Source: Hyphomonadaceae bacterium | Lineage (GTDB): Bacteria; Pseudomonadota; Alphaproteobacteria; Caulobacterales; Hyphomonadaceae | Direction of reading: 5' to 3' | Length of the DNA: 64,000 nt | Assembly (NCBI GenBank): GCA_022844475.1 | Contig: JALHLR010000020.1 | Span: 1 to 64,000 of the forward strand | Shown: positions 11,396-34,388 of the stretch, in pieces | How the letters are laid out: the number at the start of each line of letters is the position of its first letter | Position numbering within the stretch: the first letter of the stretch is position 1 | Notes under the pieces: generated by a model | Seen by the model: the letters and a program-made list of their open reading frames with translations, nothing else | What the model was told of the DNA's origin: nothing | Databases searched by the model: none | Program-made: the position numbers and the translations under genes

Positions 11396-11932
11396 GCTCA
11401 GCGTCCACAAGCGGCCCAGTCGCCCAAGAAGGAAGGTCCGCAGATCAACGAGGACATTCGCGCGCCGCGCGTCCTCCTGATTGACGAGAAAGGCGAGAAG
11501 CAGGGCGAGATGCCGCTCGAAGCAGCGCTCGACGCCGCCAAGGAGGCTGGCCTCGATCTGGTGATGGTTGCGCCCGACAACGAGCCTCCGGTCGTGAAGA
11601 TTTCGGACTACGGCAAGCAGCGCTTCGCCGAGCAGAAGAAGAAGGCCGAAGCGCGCAAGAAGCAGAAGTCGGCCGACCTTAAAGAGATCAAGCTTCGTCC
11701 GAACATCGACAAGCACGATTACGAGGTGAAGGGCCGCTCCATCCGCCGCTTCTTCGAGGAAGGCGACAAGGTGAAGATCACCATGCGCTTCCGCGGCCGC
11801 GAAATGGCGCACCAGCATCTCGGCATGGAATTGCTCACCAAGGTGAAGGCGGAATTCGCCGATGTCGCCAAGGTCGAGTCCGAACCGCGCCTCGAAGGCC
11901 GGCAGATGGTGATGGTGCTCTCGCCACGCTGA
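11393..11932 (+). CDS. infC: Translation initiation factor IF-3
   Basis: 179 residues when started at ATC 11393. The N-domain begins with the family signature [18 protein letters not shown] and continues [21 protein letters not shown] and [18 protein letters not shown] lysine-rich linker ([13 protein letters not shown]) leads to the C-domain [36 protein letters not shown] and [14 protein letters not shown]-3 binds the 30S subunit and proofreads the initiator codon and tRNA; it rejects its own rare start codon when abundant. Starting at the first ATG (11510) would remove 39 conserved residues. The usual partners rpmI-rplT lie 2.2 kb downstream. Confidence 0.96.
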
Positions 11933-11955
11933 AGCGTAGCGAGCGTTCGGCCGGC

Positions 11956-12675
11956 ATGGAGCGTGGCGTGATGTTCAGGTCCGGCGCGGCGATCATGGCC
12001 GCCATTGTTCTGGCGGGTTGTGCAGCAGGCGAAGTCACGCCCGCGGCTGGGCCTTCCTCGGGAAAGGTCTCCCTGCAGACCCCTCCCTACGCTGGCGAGG
12101 CAACACCAGGCGAGCCGGCATCGCCCCTTGCCGCGCCGCCGGTGCAGTCGGCGGACACGGCGCTTCCCGACGCCGCACAGGACATCTCGCTGACAAGCAT
12201 TGCGACACAGTTCGATCCTGCGCGGCAGCGTTTCGTCTGGGTTCTGCCGCCGGGCATTCACGGCGAGGGGCCGTGGGATTTCAAGGCTGTCGTGAAGATC
12301 CGTGGCGAGTCGAAATTCGAGACAACCCTGCCGCTGAAGGCCGAACTCGCACCTTCCGGGACGCGACCTGAATACACCGCGGGCTACGAGATCGTGCGCC
12401 TGACCGATGACGGACGCTGGGCGCAAAGCACAGCCGAAGTCGACAAGGTGATCCAGCAACTCGTCGCCGAGTACGGTCGCGGACTTGGCGAGCTGGAAAT
12501 GATCAGCCAGCTCTATGTCAGCGTTGCACCGGCCTATCGCGCGCAGCACTGCGCCGCGGGCGCGCAACACGATATCCGCGTTTACATGGAGGAAGACGGC
12601 AAACCGCTCGTCAGCCTGAACAACGCCATGATGAGCACGATGATCACCCAGGTTGTGCGCGAGGCTTGCGGCTGA
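11956..12675 (+). CDS. Putative lipoprotein
   Basis: 239 residues. The hydrophobic start FRSGAAIMAAIVLAGCAAG has a lipobox (LAGC), so it should be lipid-anchored; the second Met (MFRSG) is a possible start. A Pro/Ala-rich linker (about 30-70) is followed by a folded domain with two late cysteines (AQHCAAG and REACG-end) that could pair. I do not recognise the domain. It follows infC by 23 bp and overlaps no gene; it starts the envelope block that separates infC from rpmI. Confidence 0.8.
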   Translation: MERGVMFRSGAAIMAAIVLAGCAAGEVTPAAGPSSGKVSLQTPPYAGEATPGEPASPLAAPPVQSADTALPDAAQDISLTSIATQFDPARQRFVWVLPPGIHGEGPWDFKAVVKIRGESKFETTLPLKAELAPSGTRPEYTAGYEIVRLTDDGRWAQSTAEVDKVIQQLVAEYGRGLGELEMISQLYVSVAPAYRAQHCAAGAQHDIRVYMEEDGKPLVSLNNAMMSTMITQVVREACG

Positions 12676-30783: not shown

Positions 30784-30904
30784 GACGCTCCTCTGCGGCC
30801 TCACGAGGCGTGAGGGTCAATGAACTGATGCGGCGATCCGATGGTTAATCTTCGCGCGGTCCGATAGTTGCTTGGAAGTCCCAAACGGTTCTGGGAGACT
30901 GCAC

Positions 30905-31699
30905 ATGAACGGGACAAACACGCTCGAACGCCAACCGGTCAGCGCCAATTCGGGGAATCCCTTTCCCTGGGCCGGCCAGCCTGACGAGACGGCGTGCAAC
31001 TACGCCTTCGGCAACCTCATCCGCAACCTGCCCCCGCGCATCGCCCTTGAGGGCCAGCTGCACGCGCCGACCGTGATGGCGGCGATCGGCGCTGTCGCCG
31101 GCGTTGCCGCCCAGGTCTCGCTTCTGGCCGACGCGGAAAAGATGGAGAAGGTCACTTCGGAAAAGAAACTCTCGGAACTGACGCTCAAGGCCGACGGCCG
31201 CATTTTTCTTTACGGCCCCGCCCTCAATGAGATGCTCTACAGCGTCAGCGATCCTGTCCTCGCCCGCTCGCGGGTATGGAACATGATGGTCGCCGCTGCG
31301 CTGTCGAAGGGCCTCGATCGCAAGGACCTGCCGAACGTGCCGGCGATGTTCCGCCATGTCAGCGACTCGTTCAACACGCCAAAGGAGGGCCTGCCGTCCG
31401 TGGCGGACAAGCTCCAGCCCGTGGCGTCCACGCGTGACCTCCTGAAACTTGTCGGCCCCGTCGCCTTCGCCGCGCTCGCCGGAGAGATCAGCCCCGCCAT
31501 CAGCACGGCGGGCGGCATTGCGAACCGCAAGTCATGGGTCGCCATCACGGCTCAGGCCGCCGCAAACATGCTGCTCAGCGCCTCGCGCATCCTCCCCCCG
31601 GCCCAGTGCCTCACCATCGCGATGGAATCGGCGATCTACGCGTCCAAGATGCGCGCGAACGCCCCGGCCGAAACCACGACCGTCGTAGGTCACGCGTAG
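30905..31699 (+). CDS. Unknown conserved-looking alpha-helical protein
   Basis: 264 residues from ATG 30905 with GGGAG 7 bp upstream. I do not recognise the family. The sequence is mostly helical with an Ala/Gly-rich stretch (IGAVAGVAAQVSLLAD about 62-77) that is too short for certain membrane insertion, a DLRRWEY-less middle, and a region SRVWNMMVAAALSKGLDRKDLPNVPAMFRHV. No signal peptide. It is monocistronic, divergent from the MerR gene, and its 3' end overlaps the convergent SnoaL-like gene by 10 bp. Confidence 0.7.
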   Translation: MNGTNTLERQPVSANSGNPFPWAGQPDETACNYAFGNLIRNLPPRIALEGQLHAPTVMAAIGAVAGVAAQVSLLADAEKMEKVTSEKKLSELTLKADGRIFLYGPALNEMLYSVSDPVLARSRVWNMMVAAALSKGLDRKDLPNVPAMFRHVSDSFNTPKEGLPSVADKLQPVASTRDLLKLVGPVAFAALAGEISPAISTAGGIANRKSWVAITAQAAANMLLSASRILPPAQCLTIAMESAIYASKMRANAPAETTTVVGHA

Positions 31700-32046
31700 G
31701 CAGCGACAGACCTGACCACCTTGCCATCCGTCCCCAGCACAAAGGTCTCCGTGACCTGCTGCTGGCGGTGGTTGGTGTAGAGGATGGTCAGGGCGTCGGA
31801 GCTGGCGAATACCAGGTCCACTTCGAAATAAAGGTCGCGCGCGAGATCGAGGGCTTTGCCCCAGTAGTCCCGCAGCGCGGCCTTTCCGTTCAGGGCATCG
31901 ACGTCCCGGCCCGTGACGATCCGGATGCGCGGCGAATGGAACACCACATCGTCCGCATAGTGGGCGAGGATTGCCTCAAGATCATGGTCGTTCCACGCCT
32001 TCACCCATTCCCGGGCGAAGGTCTGCGCGTCATCCGGGCTGATCAT
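31690..32046 (-). CDS. SnoaL/NTF2-like domain protein
   Basis: 118 residues from ATG 32046, overlapping the upstream caspase-like stop by 4 bp. NTF2-like fold: FAREWVKAWNDHDLEAILAHYADDVVFHSPRI, then GKAALRDYWGKAL and LYFEVDLVFASSDALTILYTNHRQQ. Such single-domain proteins are ligand-binding or small isomerases; no catalytic set can be assigned. The coupling suggests it works with the caspase-like protein, or is only carried with it. Confidence 0.88.
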   Translation of the reverse strand: MISPDDAQTFAREWVKAWNDHDLEAILAHYADDVVFHSPRIRIVTGRDVDALNGKAALRDYWGKALDLARDLYFEVDLVFASSDALTILYTNHRQQQVTETFVLGTDGKVVRSVAAYA

Positions 32047-32756
32047 CGAAAAGGGTCGTCCCTGCAGCTTGCGTACAGCACCAGATTGAGCGACCGCGCC
32101 CGACCCGCCTTCGCAATCTCGCTGACCGGAATCGCATGCGTCGACAACCATTTCCCATCCTGCGCGGGAAAATCCCCCATCATCCAGTAGACGCTGCGCT
32201 GGTGCTGCGCCCCATGGCCGCCAATGTAGATGATCGCATTGTCGGCGGCCTCAGAGGCGTCGGCAAACTCCGCCATCGCCGCGCGCGCCTCCTCAGCAGT
32301 CGCATCAAGCACCAGCATGGTCTGGTAACCCGCCGCGCTCAGGGCCTCGGGAACACGTTTCGCATCATGCGCCGCGCCCGGCAGTGAGTAGGCATCAGAC
32401 TTCGAGTAGTCGGCATTGATCAGAACCAGCGCGAGCCGCGTCCCGCCCTTGTCCAGCCGGCGCTTCGGGTCAGGCAGCGTGCGCGGATAATCCATCATCT
32501 GCCAGCCGCGCGAATGGATCTGGTTCGCCTCCGCCATTCGCCGCGTGAACGCCTCCAGCGTCAGAGGCTTGCCGGCGATCACCTCGCACAGCGCGCTCGC
32601 AAACGGATTTCCGCCCTGGCTTGACCGGTCACTAGTGAGCCGCCCCGCCTGCCCCGCATAGTAGATCAGCGGCGCGGCGGGTGACGGCGCAGTCTGCGCA
32701 AATGAAGGGCTCGCGGAGGATGCGGCCAGCGCAGCGATGAAAGTTCGGCGGTTCAT
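32043..32756 (-). CDS. Caspase-like (C14) protein with apparently permuted domain order
   Basis: 237 residues from ATG 32756, with a Tat-like signal (MNRRTFIAALAASSASPSFA). After the signal, LIYYAGQAGRLTSDRSSQGG and NPFASALCEVIAGKPLTLEAF to MMDYPR match the segment that normally closes bacterial caspase domains (YAAxPG, then SDG, NSPFT, RVR). The normal N-terminal part follows: LALVLINADYSKSDAYSLPG, AAHDAKRV, catalytic His181 in YIGGHGAQ, and Cys231 in LVLYASCRDDPFR, where the protein ends. Both catalytic residues are present, but the C-terminal lobe sits first. The stop overlaps the SnoaL-like start. The permutation is inference by eye. Confidence 0.8.
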   Translation of the reverse strand: MNRRTFIAALAASSASPSFAQTAPSPAAPLIYYAGQAGRLTSDRSSQGGNPFASALCEVIAGKPLTLEAFTRRMAEANQIHSRGWQMMDYPRTLPDPKRRLDKGGTRLALVLINADYSKSDAYSLPGAAHDAKRVPEALSAAGYQTMLVLDATAEEARAAMAEFADASEAADNAIIYIGGHGAQHQRSVYWMMGDFPAQDGKWLSTHAIPVSEIAKAGRARSLNLVLYASCRDDPFR

Positions 32757-32804: not shown

Positions 32805-34388
32805 CTAGAACTTCAACACCTTCACATACCGCACCTGCGGCAGCTTCTCGATGGCTTCCAGCGTCGCCGCCGGCACGTCCTGGTCCACGCCAACGATCGC
32901 GATCGCATCGCCGCCCGCCGCCTCACGACCAAGGTTGAACGTCGCGATGTTGACCTTTGCCTCGCCCAGTAGACCCGCCATCGCGCCGATGAAGCCGGGC
33001 TTGTCCGAGTTGTTGACGAACAGCATGTAGGGCTGGAAGTCGGCTTCCAGCGCCATGCCCTTGACCTCGACGATACGCGGCTTGCCGCCGACGATGGCGC
33101 CGGCGACAGAGCGCCACTTGCCCTCGACCTTCACCTTGATGCGGACGAGCGAGTCATAGATGGGGCTCGCCTCGTTGACCGATTCCTTCAGCGAGCCGCC
33201 GCGCTCCTGCAGGATGGCAGGCGCCGAGACCATGTTCACTTCTGCCAGGAACGGACGCAGCAGGCCCGCCAGCGCCGCCGACGTCAGCGGCTTGCGATTG
33301 AAGGCTGCGACCGCGCCTTCATATTCGATCTCGACCTCCGACACGCCGCCGTCAGCAACCTGGCCGGCAAATTGCCCCAGCTTCTCGGCCAGCGCCACGA
33401 ACGGCTTCAGCTTCGGCGCCTCTTCTGCCGTCACCGACGGCGTGTTGAGCGCGTTGGTGACCGCCCCCGTCAGCAGGTAATCCGCCATCTGCTCGGCGAC
33501 CTGGAAGGCCACATTGTCCTGCGCCTCCACGGTGGACGCGCCAAGGTGCGGCGTCGCCACGAAGTTCGGCGCGCCGAACAGCACGTTGGTCTTTGCCGGC
33601 TCCTCGAGGAACACGTCGAACGCTGCCGCACCGATATGCCCGCTATCGAGCCCCGCGCGCACTGCCGCCTCGTCGGCAAGCCCGCCGCGCGCGCAGTTGA
33701 TGAGGATCACGCCCTTCTTCGTCCTGGCGAGGTTCTCGGCCGACAGGATGTTCTTCGTCTGCTCGGTCAGCGGCGTGTGCAGCGTGATCACGTCGGCGCG
33801 CGCCAGCAGCTCATCCAGCTCGACTTTCTCGACACCCAGCGCCGTCGCACGATCTGCCGTCAGGAAGGGGTCATAAGCGACGACTTTCATCTTGAGACCC
33901 AGCGCGCGGTCCGCAACGATCGAACCGATATTCCCGGCGCCGATAAGGCCGAGCGTCTTCGCATACAGCTCGATGCCGATGTAGTCCTTCTTCGGCCATT
34001 CGCCCGCGATGGTGCGCTGGCTGGCGGACGGAATCTGGCGCGCGGCCGCAAACATCATCGCAATCGCATGCTCGGCCGTGGTTATGGCGTTGCCGAACGG
34101 CGTATTCATCACGATGACGCCCTTGGCGGTCGCTGCCTTCACATCGACGTTGTCGACGCCGATGCCCGCGCGGCCAATCACTTTCAGCTTCGTGCCCGCA
34201 GCGATCACGTCCTTGTCCGGCTTGCAGGCCGAGCGCACGGCCAGCCCGTCATAGTCGCCGATGATCCTGATCAGCTCGTCCTTCTTAAGGCCGACCTTCA
34301 TGTCCACCTCGATCCCGCGATTGCGGAAGATGTCGGCCGCGCCTGGCGCGAGGTCGTCGGCGATGAGGACTTTCACTTTGTTGGTCAT
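32805..34388 (-). CDS. serA: D-3-phosphoglycerate dehydrogenase
   Basis: 527 residues from ATG 34388 with AAGGAG upstream. Substrate and NAD domains: VGLKKDELIRIIGDYDGLAVRSACKPD, GRAGIGVDNVDVKAATAKGVIVMNTP, TLGLIGAGNIGSIVADRALGLKMKVVAYDP, and the catalytic region INCARGGLADEAAV, AFDVFLEEPAKTN, ATPHLGAS. Then an intervening (ASB) domain and a C-terminal ACT domain (DKPGFIGAMAGLLGEAKVNIATFNLGRE). This is the long form. It makes 3-phosphohydroxypyruvate, the first step of serine synthesis, and belongs to the serC-mazG-GNAT-serA cluster; the gap to the GNAT gene is 2 bp. Confidence 0.97.
   Translation of the reverse strand: MTNKVKVLIADDLAPGAADIFRNRGIEVDMKVGLKKDELIRIIGDYDGLAVRSACKPDKDVIAAGTKLKVIGRAGIGVDNVDVKAATAKGVIVMNTPFGNAITTAEHAIAMMFAAARQIPSASQRTIAGEWPKKDYIGIELYAKTLGLIGAGNIGSIVADRALGLKMKVVAYDPFLTADRATALGVEKVELDELLARADVITLHTPLTEQTKNILSAENLARTKKGVILINCARGGLADEAAVRAGLDSGHIGAAAFDVFLEEPAKTNVLFGAPNFVATPHLGASTVEAQDNVAFQVAEQMADYLLTGAVTNALNTPSVTAEEAPKLKPFVALAEKLGQFAGQVADGGVSEVEIEYEGAVAAFNRKPLTSAALAGLLRPFLAEVNMVSAPAILQERGGSLKESVNEASPIYDSLVRIKVKVEGKWRSVAGAIVGGKPRIVEVKGMALEADFQPYMLFVNNSDKPGFIGAMAGLLGEAKVNIATFNLGREAAGGDAIAIVGVDQDVPAATLEAIEKLPQVRYVKVLKF

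Follow-up and report, generated by a model that had tools for sequence, protein, structure and literature searches.

A natural bacterial caspase-fold family with circularly permuted lobes, a predicted cysteine protease of Hyphomonadaceae

The stretch of DNA analysed here (64,000 nucleotides from a Hyphomonadaceae bacterium, referred to as the window) carries a compact caspase-like gene in which the p10-like lobe precedes the catalytic p20 domain. The gene and its parts, together with its two closest neighbours, are as follows.

32043..32756, minus strand: permuted caspase-like gene, 237 amino acids, ATG at 32756 and TGA at 32043-32045, with 15 homologues of the same lobe order
32694..32756, minus strand: signal-peptide-like N terminus (residues 1-21), read by eye from an RR pair, a hydrophobic stretch and an AQ junction
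32463..32672, minus strand: p10-like lobe in first place (residues 29-98), from the p10 profile of linear relatives and the predicted strand and helices
32442..32462, minus strand: short p10-p20 linker (residues 99-105), bridging what in linear relatives are the C and N termini of the domain
32049..32441, minus strand: p20 catalytic domain (Peptidase_C14, residues 106-236), from profile matches
32214..32216, minus strand: catalytic His181 (GGHG), invariant in 16/16, role by homology
32070..32072, minus strand: Ala229, position Cys-2 in the alignment of 16, occupied by the S1 Asp in linear relatives
32064..32066, minus strand: catalytic Cys231 (ASCRDDPF), followed by six residues and the stop, invariant in 16/16, role by homology
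31690..32046, minus strand: SnoaL_2 or NTF2-like gene, 118 amino acids from MISPDD, overlapping the caspase stop as ATGA
32805..34388, minus strand: putative serA-like gene (3-phosphoglycerate dehydrogenase), a frequent upstream neighbour outside the system

The open reading frame lies exactly where the original prediction had placed it. The Pfam model Peptidase_C14 (PF00656) matches residues 106-207 of the product (E=9.5e-15; 55.3 bits against a cut-off of 21.4), no further domain was found besides the caspase lobes, and within the window's own genome (78% complete) this protein is the sole PF00656 match found. More specific assignments were rejected: the NCBIfam caspase model, whose cut-off is 140, gave 27.5 bits, and the caspase model of the defence collection PADLOC, a model without a listed cut-off, gave 17.1 bits.

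A search of 150 related genomes recovered 13 more homologues of full length, which align at 48-95% identity. One more (L045), outside that set, came from a scan of genome contigs that was limited by its pattern (30 stretches, 14 relatives), and a distant one (L053; 36% identity), belonging to another family, turned up among 398 genomes sampled from the same order. The family thus comprises 16 proteins with that of the window, one of them on a chromosome record (CP051229.1, Hyphomonas sp. isolate ih12). All 16 have the p10-then-p20 order and retain both catalytic residues, as had been claimed for the window protein, and the N-terminal block is present in every full-length homologue found. Pfam assigns C14 to each member (E up to 0.1), CHAT to two and TAT_signal to one. 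Both lobes are under purifying selection, with dN/dS of 0.04-0.36 for p10 and 0.10-0.20 for p20 across eight pairs, and the signal region gives 0.19-0.81 across seven pairs. Among the matches listed for 385 genomes sampled from the class at E 1e-18 there was no other full-length match, and 60 genomes of the family of L053 yielded no second permuted protein at E 1e-25. The phylum sample (398 genomes) was queried with a rotated linear profile and its results are the matches listed; up to seven candidates per genome were scored in the class, phylum and order samples where more existed. Two partial extensions (L140 and L141) were, on inspection, ordinary linear proteins. Spread on plasmids was considered and set aside after 0 matches in 72,556 plasmid records, a set that may omit records near the window's genome. 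As found here, the family is confined to Hyphomonadaceae-like genomes and one relative of the same order.

The order of the lobes was read from sequence with profiles built from 29 distinct linear C14 domains, which had been extracted by a text pattern from 37 of 41 loci carrying linear relatives. The p10 profile ranked all 16 N-terminal blocks above the best of 4,000 shuffled blocks, the decoys being composition shuffles. E values ran from 1.5e-7 to 0.11 (1.7e-5 for the window) against 0.24 for the best shuffle, the weakest true block (L012, E 0.11) lying near that decoy. The p20 profile from these proteins, by contrast, did not separate true from shuffled blocks, whose best E values were 0.96 and 1.6, respectively. 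The block at the N terminus is thus the closing part of a caspase domain, as predicted, and the p10 scores over shuffles exclude an unrelated domain. When the linear profile was duplicated, one continuous alignment ran from p10 to p20 in 16/16 proteins, and the permuted alignment outscored the best single linear match in every one, by 9.6 to 27.3 bits (102.2 against 85.0 bits for the window). The sequence-total scores of the window protein are about equal (103.7 bits linear, 103.6 duplicated) because HMMER adds up the two swapped pieces, so that the gain sits in the single-pass score.

The predicted structure agrees with this reading. AlphaFold2, given the 16-row alignment, modelled the window protein with a pLDDT of 89.8 and a pTM of 0.87; segments under 50 fall within residues 1-17, and the p10 lobe shows a strand at 29-33 and helices at 51-59 and 67-81. 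Foldseek against the PDB placed chains of JF1cpCasp2 (8vp4, 9c2y) at ranks 1-4, over 242-259 columns and with TM scores by query length of 0.67-0.68. We read the name as circularly permuted caspase-2, and a sequence search agrees: the p20 part of the family matches residues 137-229 of 8vp4, so that p20 comes second there too. Among the best 50 PDB chains this engineered protein was the only one aligned end to end. Animal caspase large-subunit chains aligned over 136-184 columns, the longest with an rmsd of ∼8, and MALT1 chains, which have both lobes in linear order, over 128-142 columns of the p20 half. Many caspase chains are single large subunits that could never align end to end, which makes MALT1 the fair comparison; it shares the p20 half with the window protein and differs in lobe order and in its Ig domains. 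The linear control, a domain of L016 (pLDDT 88.7), behaved in the opposite way: its 50 best chains, aligned over 231-256 columns, belong to MALT1 and animal caspases and include no cpCasp2. Against viral models, Foldseek yielded two hits with E up to 0.001, spanning 133 and 137 columns.

Fold and order are therefore well supported by computation, and we regard it as nearly certain that the order of the lobes is a circular permutation of the caspase fold. The central claim of the original prediction, a permuted caspase-fold domain, is borne out by the duplicated profile in 16/16 members and by the full-length match with permuted caspase-2. The reading that we favour, and hold to be likely, is that of a natural circularly permuted C14 caspase-fold cysteine protease, predicted to be active without linker cleavage, probably exported, and with a presumably altered S1 pocket.

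A source for such an order was sought in tandem caspases. Proteins with a p20-p10-p20-p10 layout occur at 11 loci in a sister genus (label g5) of the same family, and cutting the outer pieces off such a protein would yield the permuted order. Nine of these loci (L133-L139, L144 and L145) have frames of ∼490-600 amino acids with a Tat-like start, judged by eye, where uncut. The main tandem type carries Tyr for the catalytic His in its second domain (GYG for GHG; 9/9) and keeps the His in its first. In a second type (L146 and L147; ∼650-660 amino acids) a long insert separates the domains; the first of them has DTNR or DTCRYW where the usual Cys motif would stand, and the second keeps DACRN. Second domains of tandem proteins also differ at the Cys-2 motif (VDCG). 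One genome (G085) has a linear caspase match, equal in score and identity, near both ends of its single contig (C1, positions 11610-12017 and 3778226-3778633), perhaps reflecting overlapping ends of a circular contig and not a true duplication.

The tandem layout allows a different history, in which the permuted gene is a chimera with p10 and p20 taken from different copies, for example the first p10 and the second p20 of a tandem protein. The profiles lean this way: under the permuted p20 profile the second tandem p20 outscores the first in 9 of 11 proteins, and under the permuted p10 profile the first tandem p10 outscores the second in 10 of 11. Nine members of this set of 11 are close relatives of one another. 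With the same p20 profile, however, all 29 linear single-domain relatives outscore every tandem p20. In trees of the p20 and p10 pieces a single branch sets the permuted rows apart (support 100/99, 100/97 and 99/98), the 100/99 tree with a long-branch warning at L053. In the 100/97 tree of p20, from which near-identical rows had been dropped (11 linear and 2 permuted rows, and 2 tandem pairs), the permuted p20 and the second tandem p20 fall together (97/77). The later trees (the 99/98 tree and the next) also left out both pairs that represent the second tandem type, the last of them L053 as well, and the p20 grouping was lost once L053 and that tandem type were removed. None of the tested placements was rejected by AU tests (p 0.155-0.293), and in the main tandem type the second p20 carries Tyr at the position of the catalytic His. 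On this balance we think such a fusion doubtful. Of the duplication and trimming that had been proposed for the window protein, the duplicated layout does exist in a sister genus, whereas the trees disagree on descent.

Beyond its order, the permuted family departs from its linear relatives in the active site. The residue two before the catalytic Cys is Ala in 13 members, Gly in two and Ser in one. The linear relatives have a DAC motif after GHG, with Asp at Cys-2, in 41/41 loci, some of which represent the same gene, and the pattern that extracted the linear domains itself demanded D or E at this position; when a looser pattern was applied, the stray non-Asp matches lay on the opposite strand. 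An Asp in helix 1 (D131) is kept in 16/16 members and another in the p10 loop (D43) in 15/16. By residue numbering, position Cys-2 is that of Gln184 in caspase-7 and presumably of Asp211 in TbMCA2 and Asp462 in MALT1. Gln184 of caspase-7, Asp211 of TbMCA2 and Asp462 of MALT1 are given as S1 residues in the available text of PMC4357240, and reading our alignment beside that text suggests that D131 and D43 match S1 acids of other families. The S1 pocket would thus be changed, the Asp on the L4 loop at Cys-2 giving way to Ala, Gly or Ser with D131 and D43 retained. Loss of the one and retention of the others suggest that either cleavage after Arg or Lys persists or small or neutral residues are taken; cleavage after basic residues is possible, not assured, and whether the P1 preference is altered, as predicted from these substitutions, seems to us an even call.

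The same substitutions could mean that activity has been lost, leaving the caspase fold as a pseudoprotease or binding scaffold. The Cys-2 Asp is absent in 16/16 members, which fits either lost or changed activity, and pseudo-orthocaspases are described as frequent in Alphaproteobacteria in the part of PMC6426788 available. The pseudo-forms described there replace the catalytic dyad, however, whereas here His and Cys are invariant in 16/16 under purifying selection, and we judge a pseudoprotease unlikely. That the family consists of active proteases, as we predict, is fairly probable.

The permutation also removes the segment through which caspases are processed. In 28 of the 29 linear relatives, 29-40 residues separate the Cys from the p10 strand motif (one is without the motif). 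All 16 permuted proteins, by contrast, end 6 to 9 residues beyond the Cys, the early stop noted in the window thus being common to the family. The intersubunit stretch is gone, 20-23 residues lie between the conserved p10 Gln and the start of p20, and the new chain ends fall at the place where linear relatives have the p20-p10 stretch, the intersubunit linker cut in caspases. Engineered caspases work as dimers. According to the portion of PMC7760212 available, permuted caspase-2 (cpCasp2), with its small subunit first, is constitutively active, the swap letting the chain fold into an active form without cleavage, and earlier permuted caspases, all but one, still cut themselves at the linker. 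By analogy with cpCasp2, joining the lobes at their opposite ends would let the chain fold straight to the active arrangement with no linker cleavage. We infer that there is no zymogen stage, because the linker that is cut in engineered permuted caspases is absent here; activity without processing, predicted on this analogy, we rate as evenly poised.

Export would keep such a constitutively competent protease outside the cytoplasm. The Tat-like signal is less clear-cut than originally proposed: an RR pair occurs within the first eight residues of 14/16 members, a strict Tat motif is present in 0/16, and the Tat profile scores the window protein at 12.7 bits against a Pfam cut-off of 22.7. From the N terminus as read by eye, the permuted caspase is probably exported from the cytoplasm.

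The caspase gene stands in a recurrent neighbourhood. The serA-like gene lies upstream in 12 of 15 fetched loci as well as in the window (L032 is cut off by a contig end), and a SnoaL-like gene lies directly downstream in 12 of 15 and in the window (13/16 in all), with the ATGA overlap in four. At L041 the SnoaL-like gene is some 950 bp from the caspase, the surroundings of L043 hold no SnoaL or serA match, and visual inspection of the 9 kb surrounding L053 revealed neither gene, the search having given no SnoaL match there either. A 275-residue protein encoded at 30872-31699 of the window (plus strand), tail to tail with the SnoaL-like gene, recurs in 4 of 15 related loci at 43-97% identity.

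The frequent adjacency and the overlap would fit a SnoaL-like protein that works with the caspase from one operon, and coupling of the two had been claimed. This claim is not supported. SnoaL adjoins serA with no caspase in between in two genomes (G014 and G001), and in G001 the permuted caspase (L043/L015) is on contig C46 and the adjacent serA and SnoaL genes on contig C3 (L091). SnoaL homologues are present in 54 of 105 family genomes and the permuted caspase in 14, and the caspase begins with a signal-like segment whereas the SnoaL-like protein, by eye, does not. Since serA and SnoaL also pair without a caspase, the SnoaL link probably reflects gene position, transcription perhaps being shared. 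G014, G001 and the surroundings of L053 rule out SnoaL as a required partner; a working partnership is improbable, and the SnoaL-like neighbour is probably no functional part of the caspase system.

The original prediction knew of no named bacterial family with this order. This stands for bacteria as far as searched, no permuted or p10-first bacterial caspase having been found in open-licence PMC papers; it needs qualifying for algae, since the type III metacaspases of some algae place p10 before p20, according to the available parts of PMC6426788, PMC5756287 and PMC10888605. The 2019 census of 11,208 prokaryotic p20 sequences reports no type III metacaspases in prokaryotes, in the text of PMC6426788 available, and there applies a p10 cut-off of 30 bits with its own profile. 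Our N-terminal blocks reach 10.6-29.4 bits with the p10 profile of linear relatives; being below 30 bits, if with a different profile, such proteins could have counted as orthocaspases in that census (PMC6426788). The Pfam C14 model likewise covers only residues 106-207 of the window protein, and others may thus be filed as orthocaspases. From the p20-only orthocaspase class the window protein differs in having a p10-like lobe, first in the chain. The linear alphaproteobacterial C14 proteins (orthocaspases or bacterial metacaspases) share its p20 and p10 motifs and His-Cys dyad but differ in lobe order and in having the intersubunit stretch, the Cys-2 Asp and further C-terminal domains.

Type III metacaspases likewise have p10 N-terminal to p20, with p10 ending before p20 and the dyad in p20, and the common order could point to type III metacaspases in bacteria, either descended or transferred from those of algae. 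Their QTSAD, DLP and DCCH/DSCH-type motifs, however, the first belonging to the D(X)QTSAD p10 motif that carries calcium-binding aspartates, occur in 0/16 of the permuted proteins (the algal proteins were compared by description only), and each of the two lobes is recognised by profiles of linear bacterial C14 proteins. The permuted proteins are also bacterial, of about 237 residues, with a signal-like start and an end just past the Cys segment, and we hold a type III origin to be very improbable. A truncated gene, frameshift or assembly artefact, which the stop right past the Cys and the overlap with the next gene might bring to mind, is refuted by the same C-terminal end in all 16 proteins, from different assemblies including a chromosome record, and by purifying selection; its likelihood is negligible.

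The natural circularly permuted caspase thus stands closest in form to designed proteins. Srinivasula et al. (1998) reportedly made rev-caspase-3 and -6, 'reverse' caspases with the small subunit first. Engineered cpCasp2 (8vp4, 9c2y) has the small subunit first, ends in the intersubunit region and matches the fold over its whole length; unlike it, the window family is natural and bacterial, is not derived from an animal caspase and has other S1 residues. The p10-first algal type III proteins and the engineered permuted caspases are already known; a natural bacterial permuted family is, as far as searched, new. Somewhat tentatively, we propose that one bacterial lineage, independently of the algal type III proteins, has arrived at a zymogen-free exported caspase that would lack the linker, be short of one Asp in S1 and have an uncommon specificity. 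With 237 amino acids and no other domain found, the window protein is small, and it offers a natural parallel to the permuted caspase-2 that serves to remove tags. Control of caspases rests largely on cutting the intersubunit linker, and a family without that linker offers a way to test the need for a zymogen stage in a bacterial caspase and to ask why a protease of this kind would leave the cytoplasm.
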